A model generated the notes under the pieces. That model worked only from the letters and a program-made list of their open reading frames with translations, was not told the DNA's origin and made no database searches. Made by a program: the position numbers and the translations under genes. This document shows, piece after piece, positions 2,023-35,420 of a DNA stretch of 64,000 bases. This DNA comes from Antedon bifida (Eukaryota > Echinodermata > Crinoidea > Comatulida > Antedonidae), in NCBI GenBank assembly GCA_963402885.1, contig OY727096.1, positions 13,869,820-13,933,819 on the forward strand, written 5' to 3'. Each line of letters starts with the position of its first letter. The stretch's first letter is position 1.

Positions 2023-2898
2023 CAAGTTTGAAAGGAAAGACCAAACAGGTGCTAAACAGTTGCAGCACTATATTTACATTCTAATAACTGTAAGATTCAA
2101 TTAATGCAAATTAATTATTATCATTAATTAATGCTGCTTCTATAAATATATTGAGCAAAATGTTAAATTGTATTATTTTGAATAAAATCATAAATAATTC
2201 AGCAGTTAAAACCACAATTTCCAAAATTCATTTCATTTATCCACTATCAACTATACATAGTGTTGTTTAAACTACACTCCAAAATAAAACAAAGAAATAA
2301 TGATAGGAAATTTGCAGAAAGAAGCAAACTCTGCTCCGCTACTGGTAACACTGTTATTTAATACGGAAATTCAGCCTAATATTATGAACGAAAACTATAC
2401 GCAAAATTATGATTTGGCTTTAAATTATGGAAAACCTCCGGCAAAACAAAATAATTATAGACAAATCGACAATCCCCATATGTGTGTGTTGGCTCAGAAA
2501 CATATCTACAAACAAAATATGTGCTGGCCGCCGATACATTGTGTACGGTATTGGTGACTCTGCTGGTTAAATGTTACAGTGCAGTCGGCCAATTTACAAA
2601 TATTCTCTTCCAGCCCTGGAAATTTATAAAAATTTATATGGATATTGTATACGATGAAATAGGATCTAAATTTTAATTTAGTGGCACTAGAGTAAAACTC
2701 TTGGGTCCGTCTCTGGTGCTAAATACCTATGCTAACATAAAACAAATACAAACATCTTAATTACTACAGTATCTACTACTATCTAGTATTTACTACTAAT
2801 TACAACATTTTAAAGAAGTTGATTGCAACATCTAAAAGAAGTTGACCAATTGCAGACATTTTTGACATTGTAAAAAAAAGTTTACATTTAAAAGAACT
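2023..2898. other. Intergenic, no gene recognised
   Basis: AT-rich sequence. A short open frame at 2300-2557 has no recognisable motif and no splice context, so it is not called. Nothing else is supported here. Confidence 0.45.
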
Positions 2899-2899
2899 A

Positions 2900-3081
2900 A
2901 AGCTTGGTTCCCACTAGAACGTAACGCAAGGACGTAAACGCAACGTAAGCGTTTTAGCCAATGACAAGCGAAGTTATAGACAGTTAGCAATCACAAGCGA
3001 ATAAGCCATCGCTTGTGATTGGTCAATTCACTTGCGTTGCGTTACGTCCTTGCGTTGCGTCGCTAGTGGGAACCACGCTTT
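2900..3081. mobile_element. MITE with GTTCCCACTAG terminal inverted repeats
   Basis: The ends are inverted copies reading AAAGC(T/G)TGGTTCCCACTAG, and the similarity continues inward through ACGCAAGGACGTAA for about 45 bp on each side. The element is flanked by TA, compatible with a TA or TTA-type target duplication. About 180 bp, no coding capacity. The superfamily is not assigned. Confidence 0.75.
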
Positions 3082-3087
3082 ATAGAC

Positions 3088-3350
3088 AAATTTAAAGCCA
3101 CATTCCCTGCAATTGTCAAAGTTTGTAAATATAATGCATATATATACTTTAAAAACATTAAACCAGGACATGTCTTGTCATGTCTGTACGTTTTATGGTT
3201 AATTATGATAAAAAGAGAAAAATAATGCGCTAAGTTTGCGTTGAATGTCTTTATGCCTAGCCTATCTAGGCTTAGCTCTGTAGGCCTACAGTGAGTAGCT
3301 TGTATAGGATCTTTCTCTAGACACTTTATCTGATAGAAGGCGTAATCTAT
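3088..3350 (+). repeat. Family A MITE, left-half copy
   Basis: It begins with TTAAAGCCACATTCCCTGC, continues with AATGCATATATATA and a run resembling AAACATTAAACCAGG, and ends in GGCCTA-rich sequence. The same order occurs at 19935, 24432 and, inverted, at 44568-45163 and 45421-46043. Only the left half is evident here. Confidence 0.6.
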
Positions 3351-3489
3351 GCTATAAGTTTGCTCTGAATTGTTTGAAAAGTATTCATTTTGGAAAATGG
3401 TTTCCAATGAAGAATGTAAGTAACATGAAACTAAGACATGTAAAGTATCAACAATGCAGAGTTGAAAGATATAGAAAAAGTGCAGTCCC

Positions 3490-9204: not shown

Positions 9205-10055
9205 TTTCCAGTGAGCACCGGTGGATTAGTGCCAGAGCTTGTTACCTATCTTTGCGAGCACCGGTGGATTAGTGCCAGAGCTTGTTACCTATCTTTGCGA
9301 GCACCGGTGGATTAGTGCTAGAGCTTGTTACCTATGTTTGTGAAGCACCAGCGGATTAGTGCCAGGGCTTGTTACCTATCTTTGCGAGCACCGGTGGATT
9401 AGTGCCAGGGCTTGTTACCTATCTTTGCGATCACCGGTGGATTAGTGCCAGGGCTTGTTACCTATCTTTGCGAGCACCGGTGGATTAGTGCCAGGACTTG
9501 TTACCTATCTTTGCGAGCACCGGTGGATTAGTGCCAGGGCTTGTTACCTATCTTTGCGAGCACCGGTGGATTAGTGCCAGGGCTTGTTACCTATCTTTGC
9601 GAGCACCGGTGGATTAGTGCCAGAACTTGTTACCTATCTTTGCGAGCACCGGTGGATTAGTGCCAGAGCTTGTTACCTATCTTTGCGAGCACTGGTGGAT
9701 TAGTGCCAGAGCTTGTTAACTATCTTTGCGAGCACCGGTGGATTAGTGCCAGAGCTTGTTACCTATGTTTGTGAAGCACCAGCGGATTAGTGCCAGAGCT
9801 TGTTACCTATCTTTGCGAGCACCGGTGGATTAGTGCCAGAGCTTGTTACCTATCTTTGTTGAGCACCGGTGGATTAGTGCCAGAGCTTGTTAACTATCTT
9901 TGCAAGCACCAGCGGATTAGTGCCAGAGCTTGTTACCTATCTTTGCGAGCACTGGTGGATTAGTGCCAGAGCTTGTTACCTATGTTTGTGAAGCACCAGC
10001 GGATTAGTGTCGGAGCTTGTTTGTTTGAGCACACCGGTGGTTTAGGACCAGTGCT
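9205..10055 (+). repeat. 43-bp tandem satellite, about 20 units
   Basis: The unit runs from GAGCACCGGTGGATTAGTGC through CAGAGCTTGTTACCTATC to TTTGC and repeats every 43 bp. Most units are near-identical. A second type carrying GTGAAGCACCAGCGG recurs at irregular intervals (near 9350, 9775, 9910, 9990). Because 43 is not a multiple of three and each unit holds TAG, it cannot be a long coding repeat. Confidence 0.95.
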
Positions 10056-14400: not shown

Positions 14401-17400
14401 TTGATTGCATGTTGCATACACTCATAAGAATACAAATATGAACAACAAACGGATAAAATAGGATAATGCCCGGGAACAATAAAATAATAATAATTCAAAA
14501 AGGTAGTAAAGGCATTAGGACACATTTTCTTTATTTCGTGTTAATTTGAGGAAAACTGATTTTAATTCTATTAAAATCTTCCTAATATTTTAATATAATT
14601 TTACTGTATAATAATATTAAATGCAAAAATTCTGTTTGCTGCACCTGACGTTCAAAGAGAAATGCATGCCAATTAACATTGACATTCTTGACAGATGGTT
14701 TTATATTGTGTGGTACCCGGTTTGACAAAAATAACACTGTTATACAAATGATTATGAACGCTACGCAAATGATACCATGACCCGTAGCATTTTGTTTTTT
14801 ACGAAATAGAAATTTAAACTACTCAAAATAAAATAGATTTAGAATTTAAAAAAGCTATCCAACGAAACAAAACAAAGATGTGATTTTACAACAGTGCACA
14901 TTTATTTATATGTTTATATTAATAATAAAAAAGTAAATTTTGTGTATTTTGTTGTTTTTTTTTTAGATATGGAAAAATTAATTCCACAAAGGCAATACTG
15001 GATAAGAATACTAATCAATGTAAAGGTGAGTGAGCTTGTGAAAGTGAAGTTTAATCATAATAAACATACACTTTTTTCAACCCAGTCCCAAATCCGTAAC
15101 CTACTTGCCCTGAAACACTGAAAAAATCTCCAAGCAACTAATTAGTACATATATTATTGTTCCATGTCAGCTTGTTCAAAAAATGGTTACAATCAGAAAA
15201 TGTACTGCTGCTGTAACCATGCCATACTTTTGATCAAAAGCAAATAAGGTATCACATATGAAAACTCTAAATAATACTGTGTTACACCAAAATACACAAA
15301 TTAATACAAAGACCATTTTTAAAAACTATTTTCATGTTTTCTTTTCATAGCACCGTAGGCTCATGTTAGCTGTGAATATTTTTTCGCCAAAAGTTAGATG
15401 TAGGCCTAGCTTTGACATCATTCTTTTGATAAACAGAGTACTTTGACAATAATACTAGCAGTATATATTAGCTATGTACCTAGCAGCTAAATATGCATTA
15501 AATAGCTATTACTCTAATGATAACATGAAGATTTAAGAGTATTAGTAAATGTTACCAAACTATAGTTATTATGCATTGTATTGGAGAGAAATGTAATTTT
15601 TTATCATGTATGGATTTTTTATTAATGCAAAATAAAAATATTGTGTTAACCACGCCCGACCGACTCTAAACTGTAATTTGTGAGCCAAACTGCAATTGTG
15701 AAACCAAAAGGTGAAAAAATGTTGTCTTCTTCGCTAAATTGGCGAATATATGGTTTTGATAGATATTTGGCATAACTTAGTCATTGTTTCTGCTTCCAAA
15801 TAAATACTTTATATTACTTTATATTTTTTGAAGAAATGGTGCTCATAAAAAATATACCATATTTTCACCACCAAATTTGTGGACCCTTTCTACTACCAAT
15901 GCAAATGATGTATGTTTTTTGACCTACAGCATATTAGGGGTTTGATCTTCTTTCATTATCCACTTTTTACACACTCTTTGTAGATAGTCTAGTTAGTCAA
16001 CATCACATATATATATGTAAGTGCCAAATCCAAGCTAGGTTACTGTGCTTGTGTTCACTGAAGGGTGTCAAGTGAACAGGTGACCAACCATATGGGTTAT
16101 GCTAATGAGGGCATAGCTTGCTTGGGCTGTGGCTGGCAGTTGGATAGTTAGGCTTGTTGGGTAAGGACCTAGCAAGCACAAAAGGCTTACTTAGAAGCCT
16201 ATAGAAGTGGTAGATGTACCAAGGCTTACTTAGAAGCCTATAGAAGTGGTAGATGTACCAAGGCTTACTTAGAAGCCTATAGAAGTGGTAGATGTACCAA
16301 GGCTTACTTAGAAGCCTATAGAAGTGGTAGATGTACCAAGGCTTACTTAGAAGCCTAAGCTGGCCTAGCTATAGATGGTAGATGTACCAAGGCTTACTTA
16401 GAAGCCTAAAGCTGTAGTACGGTAGTAATTGATATAGTGTATAGCTATAGCTGCACATGTTATCCAGGCATATCTTTGGTAAGCAATTGAGACTTATCTT
16501 ATTATTATTATAGTTGTAATTATTTTGAACCAAGAATTATTTATATTGTACTGTTTTATCTATGACTTATTTAGATACTTATGTAAGGTCTATTATTATT
16601 GTATAGAATTATTTATGTTGTACTGAATGATAGATACCGTATATATTATTTGTAATCATTATTTATTTGTTATAGTAAATCGGATCAAGTTGGAGAACAA
16701 TTAAATTCCGCATTTGCAAGAAACTTGTTTGTGCAGTTATAAAATTTACAAAGTTATATCCACGATGGCTGAAGCTGCTTCAGAGAAATCTGTTAGAGTA
16801 AAACGTAAGACCGAGAAGGGTGCAGAGTATGAAAAGGAACGAAAGCTGAAAGGAATCAAAGAGTTGTGGCGTCGTGTTAAATTTGTGTCAGAAGCGTTGA
16901 AAGCTTCTTTGAATAAGGAAGTTACAAGAGAAAATCTGATTAAGGTGCATCAAGATTGGTTAATGGTGTATGGTGAATTTATGTTCCTTCATGATGAAAT
17001 TTGTGGCTTGCTGAACGAGGAAGAGAAAATAATGTATAATGAATGGTTTGAAGACAAAGATGTGTGGTTGGCAAACTTAAAAGCTAAAGTAGAGGATTGG
17101 TTTGCGGTGCTTGAGGTAGAGCAGTCTGCGGCGGTAAATTCTCATCGCTCCGCAAGCAGGAAATCAACTAACAGTTCAAAATCTTCTAAGCGATCACTAA
17201 GTGCTTTTGTGATGCAAGAAGAGCAAAAACATGCAGAGTTGCTAGCCAGGCAGAGGAGTCTCACAGAAAAGCAGAGAATTCAACAGGAAGAGTTCAAACT
17301 CAAACAGTTAAAAGAAGAAAACGCTTTAAAAGAAGAGATAGACGTCGCCGAAGCAAGATTGAATGTTGCAAGGGATTTCGCAAGCGGAAGTGGTTCTGGT

Positions 17401-20400
17401 AGCCACAAAAGTACGTCATCAATGGAAGGGTTTCTAGATAGTGCATACCGACGAAATGTGTTATCCTTTGCTCCAGCGGATCCTGCTACTATTCCTGTAT
17501 TAGATTTAGACCCATTGGATCCTGTTGTAGTCCCTGTTGTTCCTGGTGATGTAACACAAGCCTTTGCTCCAGCCGATCATGTTACAATTCCTGTGCTAAC
17601 GTCAGTTGCTCCTGTGGTAGTACCTGCTGTTCCCGTAAACGTACTGGCAACCCAAAACTTTGCTCAAGCAGATCCTGCTCCTACTACAATTCCTAACTTA
17701 GCTTCGAACACAGTGACTCCTGTGGTAGTTCCTGTTACGCAAACTCATCTGTTTCAGCAAAACCGGCAGGGTTGTCAGGATTCTTTTTCTTCTAATAGAA
17801 AAGTTGGTTCTACTGATATGAACGAGGTGATAAGGACTATGCGGAAGCCACAAATGGAAATTAAGAAATTTGCAGGTGAATCCTTGGAATTCAAACGTTT
17901 TATAAGACAATTTAAGTCTAGAGTGGAACAGTTTTGTTCAGCAGATGAGAAATCCAATTGCTTCCGGAGAAGATGGAAACAAGCTCAATATTTGGCTGAT
18001 CGTTTCTGGGAGAGATGGAAAAGTGAATATCTTCCGCTGTTACAAAGAAGACAAAAGTGGTTATCTCCAAAACAAGGATGGGTTTGTTCGGCAAGTAAAG
18101 GTAAAGACACATGCAAGTATCCTGACAAGGCCTGTGAGTAAACTATGTTTGCTGTTGGAGAATGATGATCCGGAAAAGTAAATCCGAGGCGTTGTCTATA
18201 TTATTCTGAATTCAACAAAACAAAGAAGGAAGCTGAGAAAACTTAAGAAACTTTAAATGAACTTTATATTTAACTTTATTTTTTTTCGCTACTTATATAC
18301 ATTGTTGTTTAACATTATATTCAATAAGTTGATGGATAATTTGTGTTATAGGCCTGGATTTTACACTTTCATTGTATGAACTTTATATTTAACTTTATTT
18401 TTGTCGCTACTTATATACATTGTTGTTTAACATTATAGTCAATAAGTTGATGGATAATTTGTGTTATAGGCCTGGATTTTACACTTTCATTGTATTTGTA
18501 TGTAGAATTGTGCAATGCGCAATTGTGGGTGGGTATGTAAGTGCCAAATCCAAGCTAGGTTACTGTGCTTGTGTTCACTGAAGGGTGTCAAGTGAACAGG
18601 TGACCAACCATATGGGTTATGCTAATGAGGGCATAGCTTGCTTGGGCTGTGGCTGGCAGTTGGATAGTTAGGCTTGTTGGGTAAGGACCTAGCAAGCACA
18701 AAAGGCTTACTTAGAAGCCTATAGAAGTGGTAGATGTACCAAGGCTTACTTAGAAGCCTATAGAAGTGGTAGATGTACCAAGGCTTACTTAGAAGCCTAT
18801 AGAAGTGGTAGATGTACCAAGGCTTACTTAGAAGCCTATAGAAGTGGTAGATGTACCAAGGCTTACTTAGAAGCCTATAGAAGTGGTAGATGTACCAAGG
18901 CTTACTTAGAAGCCTAAGCTGGCCTAGCTATAGATGGTAGATGTACCAAGGCTTACTTAGAAGCCTAAAGCTGTAGTACGGTAGTAATTGATATAGTGTA
19001 TAGCTATAGCTGCACATGTTATCCAGGCATATCTTTGGTAAGCAATTGAGACTTATCTTATTATTATTATAGTTGTAATTATTTTGAACCAAGAATTATT
19101 TATATTGTACTGTTTTATCTATGACTTATTTAGATACTTATGTAAGGTCTATTATTATTGTATAGAATTATTTATGTTGTACTGTATGATAGATACCGTA
19201 TATATTATTTGTAATCATTATTTATTTGTTATAGTAAATCGGATCAAGTTGGAGAACAATTAAATTCCGCATTTGCAAGAAACTTGTTTGTGCAGTTATA
19301 ATATATACTATATGGTCATATTGAGATAACTTTTTTCGTCTTTAAACGGTTAAACATGAGAAAAATAAGTCGATACTAGTAATTTTAGCGGCCCCCTATA
19401 AATCCCAAAATGCATTGCGCGCGGATTGATATTTTCGTTTTTCTTCTGTAATTCACACACATTTCGATCGATCGTGAGGCCAAAACAAATGGAAGACTCC
19501 TAACTTTTCAGCGAAAATACAAAGTTTTCCCCAATTTGTATCAACGGAGTCTGGTAAAAATAGAAAGACAATTAATGCAACAACTATACAATTTTTTAAC
19601 ACTGACACTATTATTATGAAAGATTGCAGAAAATACATACAATTATTTACAGGAAAAAAACCTCCCCTCCGCCCTTCTTTTTTTTATTTTGATTTTTATA
19701 TGCAGCCTGATTATTATTATTTTTAACTCTTTTTTTTTCCTTCTTATGTAGGTTATGGTTTTGTAGATTTTGAAAATGGCCCAGCAGCACAAAAAGCAGT
19801 CACTGCATTACAAGCCAAAGGTGTGGCTGCCCAGATGGCTAAGGTAAGAATACAATAGAAAGTATGGAGTCTGGTGTAATGGTTTGACTTATTGGAGAAT
19901 GATTATCACAAAAAAAATGTTTTAAACACACTAGACCTGCAATTGTTGACGTTCGACGATATAATGCATATATATATAACTTTAAAAACATTAAACCAGA
20001 TCATTTCTTGTCTTAAATGTGCGTTCTAAGGTTAATTTTATGATAAAAAGAGAAAAATAATGCACTACCTAAGTAGTTTTGTAGGCCTAGCTCGTAAAGA
20101 GCGGTAACATATAAACATCGTACACTAGCTATAGGCCTAGCCTGACGTTGTCTTATTGCTGAATTAATTGTCTTTTCTTTTTTGGAAGAATCCGTTAATA
20201 CAAATTGGGGAAGACCTGGTATTTTCGCTGAAAAGTTACGGTTCTTTTCTTTGTTTACCTTTCACGCGATCGGTCAAAGTGGCTTTATCACATCACAATA
20301 TGAAAATATCAACCTGCCCACGATGCATGTTTGGTTTTATAGCTAATATTATTAGAATCGGAATTAGAAATTTTCGGACATGCTAGCTACGGCCCTGGAG

Positions 20401-32079: not shown

Positions 32080-33188
32080 GGGTGTCACGAAACCTAAGAT
32101 TACAAAAACTAAGACCCACTAAGACCTAAGATCACAAAACCTAAGACCCAAGATCTTAGATTGCCAATAGTTCCCTTTCGCACCTGCCTGTAACTGTAAA
32201 TGTGTTAACCAACTTTATCCTGAATACCACACCTTATTAGAATTACTACTTTTATGAAGAAGAATCAAACAAATAATAAATAACATTTTACAGACGTTTT
32301 TTATGCGAATTTCGCATACTCCAATAATTATGTTCAATATTTTTGTTTCTATGGAACGCCAAAAGAGCAACATTAATAGAGTGCTAAAAACTATGTGGAA
32401 TCCATCTATTTAACAGATTTTTTTTGGTAAAAATCATGTTCAATTTCAATATATTTTGTCACTGTCAATACAAATAAAATGAATGAAATTTATATATCCC
32501 CCTCAGGTCGCCCTTATGACCACGCCTAGTGTATGTAGTGATGCTGATTTAAAGATCGATTAATATTCTTTGAAAACAGAAAAGTATCAGCAGTAACAGA
32601 TTACAGCATTTTTATTGCCAAAATATATTTAAATTAAACATGCATTTCACCAATAAATTCATTAAAAGTAAACGCATTCCACCCTCTATCACTGTTGCTC
32701 TTTTGGCGCTCTATAGAAACGAAAATTTGTGAATAGTGTGCGAGAAGCACATCTGTAAAATCACCAATGTTTATTTTATAAATAACACCAAGTATTTATT
32801 TGTTCCTTTTTATGTGTAAAAAGTACTTATGAGGCCTAATTCTAAGGTGTGATTTTTCAGGATAAAGTTAGTTGAATTAATTTGGAGTCAAAATACAAGG
32901 CAGGTGCGAAAAGGAAACACCCCTGAAACCAATGCAATGGAGTAAATATATATCAACAAACAAACGGGTGAAAATATTGAGTGTATTGAGAGTTGCCTTC
33001 TGTTTGTAATAAATATTTAATTAAATTTATGGTAAAAAGCATTGATAAATGAAACCTACTATGTTTAAAATTATGTATAGATCAACAATTATTGTTTTTA
33101 AGCTATCGTATATATTAGAAATTGTAATCTTAGGTCTTGGGTCTTGCGTTTCGTGATCTTTAGGTCTTAGTAGGTTTCGTGACACCCT
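32080..33188. mobile_element. 1.1-kb inverted-repeat element with 8-bp target duplication
   Basis: Ends GGGTGTCACGAAACCTA and its inverse, flanked by CTAAAAGG on both sides (32072-32079 and 33189-33196). The arms continue inward: CTAAGA(C/T) words, AACTTTATCCTGAA, GCGCCAAAAGAGCAAC all recur inverted. An 8-bp duplication fits the hAT superfamily, and no transposase is encoded, so it is a non-autonomous foldback type. Confidence 0.85.
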
Positions 33189-33465
33189 CTAAAAGGGGTC
33201 CTACTATTACTAAACACAACCAGATACCTACCAGAGCAACAAATCCTACCACCAGAGAGCAGCCACCTGCTTGAAATTGATTCAAAGCTCAATTCTTTAA
33301 GAAACTGATAAAATTTAAGTTAAAAGTGAATTTCTCGCCGTCGCAATTTCAGAATCGATTGCGTTTGATCATCATAAGTAAACAGTACTGTAGAGTAGTG
33401 CCGAAACGAACGCGTTCATCCGTGTCTATGTGTAATCTATGGCGCGCCAAGCTGTCATTTATTCG

Positions 33466-33685
33466 CAAATAAAGATATCTTAGTTTAAAACTAAGATATC
33501 TCTATTTAAAACTAAGATATCTCTATTTAAAACTAAGATTTCTTAGTTTTTAATAGAGATATCTCTATTAATAGAGATATCTCTATTTAAAACTAAGATA
33601 TCTCTATTTAAACTAAGATATCTCTATTAATAAAGATATCTCTATTAATAAAGATATCTCTATTAATAGAGATATCTTAGTTTTG
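33466..33685. repeat. Left palindrome array
   Basis: About a dozen units mixing TCTCTATTAATAGAGATATC and CTTAGTTTTAAATAGAGATATC-like words. Every unit is centred on GATATC, and half-units appear in both orientations. Confidence 0.9.
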
Positions 33686-34721
33686 TTTCCGGTTCAGTGT
33701 TTTATGGGTAATACGATTTTCCATCTGTGACTAAGGTATGGTCATATTCCCATATTGTAACAATATCTTATCACCGTCCCAGTTGTAATATAAGAGGCTA
33801 TAATGAAACAAAAGGGAACAGAGGCAGAAACAGGATGTTTGAGAAAAAATTATAATGAGCACATAAACACGTTTCCATGCATTCTAACCGAAAAAAAGAG
33901 ATAAAAACCCCATGGTACAGTATTTGATCACTATTTAATTATGGATGACAGCAGTTTCTATGTATAATTTTGAATACGCTTTCGTGAAATAGCTTGGCGG
34001 ATAATGCCGATCTTGTTTTATGGTAAACAAACTTGAAGTGCCTCTAGTTTTCTAGAAATTTCAATCTTATTTGTCTGGTCCGCGGTAATAGAAAATTATT
34101 TATAAGCCATGTGTTAATCCAAGTGCAGTCAGTAGGGAGGAGTAGAAGATGTAGATGATGATAATTGTTATCTTGAAGTTTGTAATACGAAAAATAAATT
34201 TAAATGTGAACACATCGATGCTCATTGCAATGAAACCGACTATTGTCTTTTAGACCGTCTATATTGTACATAAATTTTACTATTAAATCGGAAAGGGAAA
34301 AAAAGACTAGTTTGAGAGAATGCAACACTCAGAATGCGTGGTATACACACGTAAATAATTTGTCCGTTTGTGATGTCGATGGGTGTCCCTTTTCACTTCT
34401 TTTTACTAGATTTTCAACCTTCCAAATGCTCGGTATAAGAGCCCACATCCAAGTTTATTATTGCAACTCGAAACTCCACGAAATTAATACAGTACAATAT
34501 CGGCTCTCTCTGCAACAATTTTATTATAATGTTTTTCCGTTTTATAATATACTAATAATACTAGTTACAGCAGTGTAGCTTATACCTGTCTGACCTGGAA
34601 ACCAACAACTATAAACACCTTGGGATGTCCCTAATGGGACATTAATCTTCCATTCTAAATGGCACACTTCCCACCACGTTCACAACTATACCCTTCCCTT
34701 CATACTTTGCAACAGGAAACA

Positions 34722-35146
34722 AAACTAAGATATCTGTATTAATAGAGATATCTCTATTAATAGAGATATCTTAGATTCAACTAGAGATATCTTAGTTTTA
34801 AATAGAGATATCTCTATTAACAGAGATATCTTTATTAAAAACTAAGATATCTCTATTTAAAACTAAGATATCTTAGTTTTAAATAGAGATATCTCTATTA
34901 ATAGAGATCTCTCTATTAATAGAGATCTCTCTATTAAAAACTAAGATATCTTAGTTTTAAATAGAGATATCTTAGTTTTTAATAGAGATATCTTAGTTTC
35001 AATTAGAGATATCTCTGTTAATAGAGATATCACTATTAATAGAGATATCTATTTAAAACTAAGATATCTCTATTTAAAACTAAGATATCTCTATTTAAAA
35101 CTAAGATATCTCTATTAAAAACTAAGATATCTCTATTGCTTGATTA
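34722..35146. repeat. Right palindrome array
   Basis: Over twenty units of the same GATATC-centred words, twice as long as the left array. A few units carry AGATCT in place of GATATC (near 34907 and 34926). Confidence 0.9.
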
Positions 35147-35206
35147 AATGTCAGATTGGCGCGCCAAAGTAATCAAAGAACTTCTAGCTAAAGTTCTTTG
35201 ATTGTA

Positions 35207-35420
35207 TTCAGCTAGCGGTCAACTGTGAGGCGCTACCGATGCATTTATTTGGTAAAATAAATTCTTTTCTGTGCACTATAACATTTAAAAATAAATAACT
35301 TATTTGTTACTCAGTCAACTACTCTCACAGCATTTATTTGGCCAAATAAAATCAGAAATACTTTCCTGTACACTATAACATTTAATAAATAAAACTATAC
35401 AACTATGTTCACACAATTTG
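35207..35420 (+). repeat. ~92-bp tandem duplication
   Basis: GCATTTATTTGG ... CACTATAACATTTAA(A)AATAAA occurs at 35239 and again at 35331 with changes. Confidence 0.6.

Follow-up and report, generated by a model that had tools for sequence, protein, structure and literature searches.

The window analyzed here, a 64-kb stretch of the Antedon bifida genome, contains a discrete element of 1,731 bp (33438-35168) that belongs to a dispersed mobile family and is not satellite DNA. The family is defined by its 27-bp termini and not by its arrays of GATATC palindromes, which are optional and can be of any length or missing altogether. Considered as a whole, the observations are likely explained best by a nonautonomous cut-and-paste transposon, most plausibly of the IS3EU/GingerRoot type, with arms generated by slippage and foldback copying.

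Table 1. Parts of the element in the window, from left to right
Feature	Position	Strand	Remarks
Target-site duplication, left copy, GTAATC	33432-33437	.	Identical to 35169-35174
Left terminus (TIR), TATGGCGCGCCAAGCTGTCATTTATTC, followed by GCAAATAA subterminal stretch	33438-33472	+	Terminus alignment
Left array, 10 linkers joining 11 AGATATCT cores, one of them mismatched	33473-33677 (205 bp)	.
Left inner border, TAGTTTTGTTTCCGGTT	33678-33694	+	Inverse of right inner border
Non-coding centre, ~1 kb	33695-34710	.
Right inner border	34711-34727	-	Inverse repeat of left border
Right array, 21 cores and 20 linkers	34728-35132 (405 bp)	.
Right terminus (TIR), diverged (TTTGGCGCGCCAATCTGACATTTAATC), with CAAGCAATAG-type subterminal stretch	35133-35168	-
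Target-site duplication, right copy, GTAATC	35169-35174	.	Identical to 33432-33437

The motif GGCGCGCC was found at two sites in the window (33441 and 35158), which are the two ends of the element, as opposed to 0.04 sites expected from base composition. GATATC occurred 38 times, 29 of them within the element, with about 22 occurrences expected for the entire window. The inner borders are inverse copies of each other over 33633-33694 and 34711-34772 (95% complementary). These results bear out the outer inverted ends, the mutually inverse inner borders and the centre of about 1 kb described in an earlier note, which had been made from the sequence of the window. The arms are indeed unequal, although at 205 and 405 bp they are slightly shorter than the 220 and 425 bp estimated there, and the right limit proposed there, 35200, overshoots the element by about 30 bp, covering most of a separate small hairpin. 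The centre gave no Pfam match at an E value of 0.01, and its longest stop-to-stop reading frame was 114 aa; viral_contigs pattern scans returned 0 matches, and the single Rfam match was a tRNA outside the element.

Further copies were searched for in the 315.6-Mb genome in which the window lies, about 314.7 Mb of it contained in 11 contigs. With the whole element as query, 40 of 145 candidates were scored, giving at least 104 matches at a minimum of about 37 places, one of which is the window. The terminal 24-mer matched the genome 158 times at up to two mismatches, and its reversed control 0 times. We fetched 36 loci from the whole-element search (L009-L044) and, from the end matches, two longer stretches (L045 and L046) and 20 short ones (L047-L066). 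Since these loci were selected by likeness to the element or its ends, counts of association between ends and arrays are biased upwards. Flanking sequence varies between the copies read, the centre is common, partly or nearly fully, to nine loci (L009, L010, L011, L014, L015, L016, L018, L019 and L028), and the copies range in size from 3.3 kb (L010) to 88-90 bp. Two of the loci, L014 and L015, contain one element 58 kb apart on a single contig, in opposite orientations and with equal scores, and probably represent an inverted segmental duplication. In L046, 50 identical bases were found at both ends of the stretch, together with one 257-bp copy of the element and, by eye, a sialyltransferase-like reading frame (2885-3448, negative strand); this locus is a probable 5.77-kb tandem duplication.

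Target-site duplications were scored in 24 two-ended elements, for which the best-scoring pair of ends was chosen at each locus without regard to the flanks. An exact 6-bp direct repeat flanked 17 of the 24, and 22 had repeats matching at 5 or more of 6 positions, as opposed to 7 and 34, respectively, of 2000 swapped-flank controls. Counting the local duplicate pair L047/L048 once gives independent counts of 16/23 and 21/23. The duplication was missing from two elements (L013 and L032). Exact repeats of 7 to 10 bp were found in 0 of the 24, as were exact repeats of 4 bp.

Empty sites were sought by joining the flanks of 23 elements, and two usable ones were obtained. The joined flanks of the window's element aligned across the junction with L025 (336-671), where the element is absent; L025 also contains a second, inverted paralogue of these flanks, in two pieces meeting at 1830, again without the element. 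The joined flanks of L033 aligned across the junction with L044 (64 bp, 77%). Of the other matches, that of L038 was too gappy, and those of L044 and L047 were to themselves or to a duplicate. The L025 paralogues are not a perfect empty site because a hairpin adjoining the right end of the element (35171-35203, with 13-bp stems) is also absent from them; for the same reason, the hairpin seems to be a tiny separate insertion. Directly to the right of the element, this hairpin and the CTAG that follows it (35212-35215) had initially looked Helitron-like. That reading was rejected: the element-free paralogues lack the hairpin, the remaining flank continues there, and CTAG is followed by C instead of T.

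Several other repeats were observed in the window. Directly to the left of the element, an inverted-repeat unit of about 1.06 kb (32114-33175), with outer arms 86% alike and two inner pairs, is a possible separate foldback or MITE. A 43-bp minisatellite occupies 9213-10021 (18.7 copies, 92% alike). An identical perfect 39-bp tandem repeat occurs at 16182-16357 and 18702-18916, in 4.5 and 5.5 copies; it is contained in a pair of ~775-bp direct repeats (95% alike) that bracket a reading frame containing DUF5641 in the manner of retroelement long terminal repeats.

The terminus shared by the family comprises 27 bp (TATGGCGCGCCAAGCTGTCATTTATTC). Two ends can be distinguished, of the GGAAATAAAG and CAAGCAATAG types, whose consensus sequences agree over about 27 bp, then differ and then both reach AGATATC. 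Judged by eye, one end of each type was present in 13 of 14 subfamily A pairs, and the fourteenth (L010) has one altered end. TATGG begins 36 of 46 aligned ends, a count that leans upwards since the alignment query itself began with TATGG. The ten deviating ends begin with TATAA, TATAG (two), TATGA (two), TATGT, TGTGG (two), CATGG and TTTGG, the last being the right end of the window's element.

Termini also occur without arrays, and in many copies the centre is missing. An array-free form with the same interior was found at three independent places (90 bp in L047/L048 and in L050, 88 bp in L049), and the 90-bp copies carry 6-bp duplications. Arrays are therefore not needed for insertion. The element probably tolerates them as cargo without requiring them for movement. 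Three further loci (L058, L065 and L066) have complete-looking end pairs only 43-45 bp apart, with exact 6-bp duplications in two of the three. We take these to be probable deletion products formed in place; were they mobile, they would rank as extremely small transposons. L064 retains one 36-bp end alone, with a copy of TTTAAC on each side, and five loci (L053-L055, L057 and L060) had no partner end within about 1 kb.

Arrays were present in 36 loci (the window included; L028 has none), 31 of which have a terminus beside the array, 14 of them two. Two arrays are also present in L011, L031 and L032. The five array loci without a terminus are L016 and L019, both of which carry the centre; L027, probably the far half of the L011 element, split by another insertion; L040, whose terminus looks truncated; and L022, a bare array. 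An unrelated observation concerns L011 (~4657) and L027 (~3000), where an apparently different element, about 8.4 kb long and bounded by inverted CACCCGATTCTGTAGCTG ends, lies within a GATATC array and has a GATATC(T) repeat on either side.

The array unit is a 21-bp minisatellite, AAAACTAAGATATCTCTATTT, with two palindromic nodes, the 8-bp self-complementary core AGATATCT and a junction (TTTAAA or TTAA). We denote the half-linkers CTATT and TAGTTTT as x and y, respectively. In 57 arrays with 500 cores, from which L015 and L048 were left out as duplicates, AGATATCT was exact in 425, a fraction biased by the acceptance of cores at up to one mismatch. The linkers comprised 144 xy, 141 yx, 91 xx, 26 yy and 41 unclassified. 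Thus, palindromic linkers (xx and yy) account for 117 of 402 classified (29%), and the others form asymmetric 21-bp repeats in either orientation. In the window's element, 11 of the 30 linkers between cores are palindromic, 17 are asymmetric and 2 are unclassified; the linker order in the left array is yy xy xy yx xx xy xy xx xx xx. The description of the arms as made of self-complementary units consequently holds for the core and for a minority of the linkers.

Two subfamilies differ in how the units are arranged. In subfamily B (L024, L030, L033, L038 and L039), the ends are TATGGCGGGCCAAACTG or close to it, and the arrays are nearly pure direct repeats, as is that of L040 with its truncated-looking end. 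Examples are 14 consecutive yx in L024 and eight in L040; a lone xy interrupts the yx series of L033, and a single yy occurs in each of L030 and L039. In subfamily A, orientations are mixed and self-reverse-complementary blocks (for example, yx yx yx xx xx xy xy xy) recur, whole or nearly so in L012, L013, L017 and the window's right arm. The right arm forms one long imperfect hairpin (e.g., 34819-34907 paired with 34910-34998, 94% complementary), with a predicted folding energy of -136 kcal/mol as opposed to -45.5 +/- 3.8 kcal/mol for 100 dinucleotide shuffles. The left array was predicted to fold at -54.6 kcal/mol, compared with a mean of -12.5 kcal/mol for 30 mononucleotide shuffles. Folding energies ranged from -0.10 to -0.18 kcal/nt in four direct arrays (L024, L030, L033 and L040) and from -0.27 to -0.40 kcal/nt in six with inverted blocks, all of subfamily A (the window's two, L009, L012, L013 and L017). 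Given its long hairpins, mixed orientations and one-ended remnants, the structure probably rearranges readily, as the earlier note had suggested.

A search for an autonomous copy among distant end pairs, among unpaired ends and with the IS481 profile found no transposase between such ends. The profile search of the genome yielded 65 scored matches among 635 candidates, 44 of them in open frames of at least 867 aa, as in retroelements, and 21 in shorter ones. None of the 65 lies within 39 kb of any of the 100 ends listed among the 158. The best short-frame candidate is followed, by eye, by an OTU-like stretch, as in Ginger1, and looks Ginger1-like; none of the family's termini was found in the 832 bp upstream or the 948 bp downstream of it. 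Individual loci were also rejected as autonomous copies: the left end of L045 belongs to a 188-bp element, L046 is the probable tandem segmental duplication described above, and the extra length of the 3.3-kb L010 copy resembles a LINE by eye. The first kilobase inside eight ends without a partner within about 1 kb contained no autonomous copy. L067, beside L056, contains a broken host-like gene and a truncated element; Pfam searches of two pieces of L067 returned PLA2_B alone, at an E value of 0.068, below its cut-off.

The arrays could be satellite or minisatellite DNA that flanks unrelated sequence, with the ends arising by chance. This is hardly credible: the bare array of L022 and the other array loci without a terminus are of the kind expected, but 31 of the 36 array loci, chosen with a bias by whole-element similarity, have a terminus beside the array, 6-bp duplications lie directly at the termini, and termini also exist without arrays. 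Arrays without the ends or the centre, which the earlier note had named as the observation that would reduce the structure to satellite DNA, are thus the exception. A different proposal, compatible with the IS3EU/GingerRoot explanation, is that the palindromic units are functional, for example by giving a dimeric transposase more sites to bind, and are kept by selection. The frequency of exact cores (425/500, biased by the one-mismatch acceptance) favors it, and the repeats of Galileo have been reported to provide additional transposase binding sites (accessible text of PMC4079207). We regard it as unlikely, given that the array-free 90-bp copies carry 6-bp duplications and that homogenisation can also produce conservation.

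As for the transposase, hAT elements carry the end motif YARNG, from which the ends found here differ, and Dada elements leave duplications of 6-7 bp. A nonautonomous element of hAT6 or Dada, a Polinton derivative, or a member of some other superfamily that makes 6-bp duplications is rather improbable. It would be consistent with the duplication length: hAT families with 6-bp duplications exist (PMC12730594), so that this length alone would fit hAT6, and Polinton duplications are 6 bp (PMC10045372; here and below, papers are cited from their accessible parts). However, TATGG..CCATA matches the published IS3EU ends (PMC12730594), and the flanks of the copies read vary, unlike the small-RNA-gene targets of Dada (PMC3706591). 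No coding copy was found. Foldback elements of the P superfamily (Galileo) or of Mutator (Tetris, Tm1 and Rehavkus), in which long repetitive TIRs are moved by a P or MULE transposase, have the same anatomy of long inverted arms with tandem repeats and a wide spread of arm lengths; in Galileo (PMC4168063) and Tetris (PMC4079207) such arms surround a middle domain. Nonetheless, their duplications are 7-8 bp in Galileo (PMC4168063), 8-10 bp in Tetris (PMC4079207), 8-11 bp in MULEs and 9 bp in Rehavkus, and here exact repeats were seen in 0 of 24 elements at 7 or 8 bp and likewise at 8, 9 or 10 bp. This origin is very improbable. Ginger1, with a 4-bp CCGG/CCGT duplication and TGTNR ends (PMC2836005), was rejected, as 0/24 elements had an exact 4-bp repeat and the ends are TATGG.

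IS3EU elements usually have 6-bp duplications and TA..TA termini (PMC10045372), and those of fungi end in TAYGG..CCRTA (PMC12730594), in the accessible parts of these papers. Because the family combines 6-bp duplications with TA..TA ends, as opposed to the other lengths in Galileo, Tetris, MULEs, Rehavkus and Ginger1, it is a probable member of IS3EU. The assignment is made from the ends and duplications, as the searches above turned up no transposase bounded by such ends. The earlier note had proposed a new foldback family and compared it with FB/Galileo-type elements; the mobile foldback form with highly variable arms stands, given the dispersed copies, target duplications and shared centre, while kinship with FB and Galileo is rejected because duplication length and termini differ.

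We propose that a transposase made elsewhere in the genome recognizes the two slightly different ends and integrates the element with a 6-bp stagger. Arrays would grow by slippage, and foldback (hairpin-primed) copying at either palindromic node (core or junction) would invert blocks, both perhaps during gap repair after excision. As the core AGATATCT and the TTTAAA/TTAA junction are both palindromic, inverted re-copying would leave the junctions undisturbed. Direct arrays like those of subfamily B would in this way be converted to the nested palindromes of subfamily A and the window's copy, and the same processes would yield centre-less and very short derivatives. Both the foldback copying and the order in which B precedes A are inferences from sequence. 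In yeast, foldback at breaks produces templated inverted duplications (accessible text of PMC11724301).

The origin of foldback arms is an old question, and here one family displays plausible stages side by side behind closely related ends: array-free 90-bp copies, direct tandem arrays (B) and hairpin arrays with inverted blocks (A). If the IS3EU assignment is true, the foldback form arose in at least a third transposase superfamily, which would argue for an outcome of replication and repair over a trait of one transposase. Tentatively, an IS3EU-type transposon may have evolved its own foldback form, independent of the P and Mutator foldbacks, with arrays that flip block by block and preserve the steps from direct to nested-palindrome arrangement; at its boldest, this idea has the hairpins used in transposition or as templates for arm growth. 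The family also supplies naturally occurring palindromes on which hairpin-driven inversion could be tested.

With long inverted arms that contain internal tandem repeats and surround a middle domain, the element has the form of the foldback class, a known type; for arms of small palindromic repeats we found no published account. The TU elements of sea urchin and FB of Drosophila have short tandem repeats in long inverted arms, and we know of no report that their units are palindromic. The family resembles IS3EU/GingerRoot in its 6-bp duplications (17/24 exact, control 7/2000) and TA..TA termini (TATGG at 36/46 aligned ends, query-biased). A possible difference is the TIR, with a shared core of about 27 bp where "longer than 30 bp" is given for fungal IS3EU; another lies in the foldback arrays, which the accessible IS3EU texts do not mention. 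No account of IS3EU foldback arms of this build was found in the accessible parts of the open-access literature (subscription papers and Repbase were beyond reach), nor any open-access paper treating GingerRoot together with foldback; in the accessible text of PMC8268682, "IS3EU" and "foldback" co-occur as table labels and a reference title. The oyster satellites CgiSat35 and CgiSat47, labelled DNA/IS3EU there, likewise tie tandem repeats to IS3EU, but as table labels, with nothing on palindromic units or foldback arms in that text. Galileo shares long TIRs that are extended by internal tandem repeats and structurally variable, but it has a GTANTAC-type target and, in one D. willistoni copy, direct tandem repeats of about 140 bp, as far as the accessible text goes. 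Tetris of Drosophila virilis, assigned to Mutator by its authors, is also a nonautonomous foldback element with tandem repeats in its TIRs, but it is distinguished by duplications of 8-10 bp and by its TIR-220 repeats (accessible part of PMC4079207).
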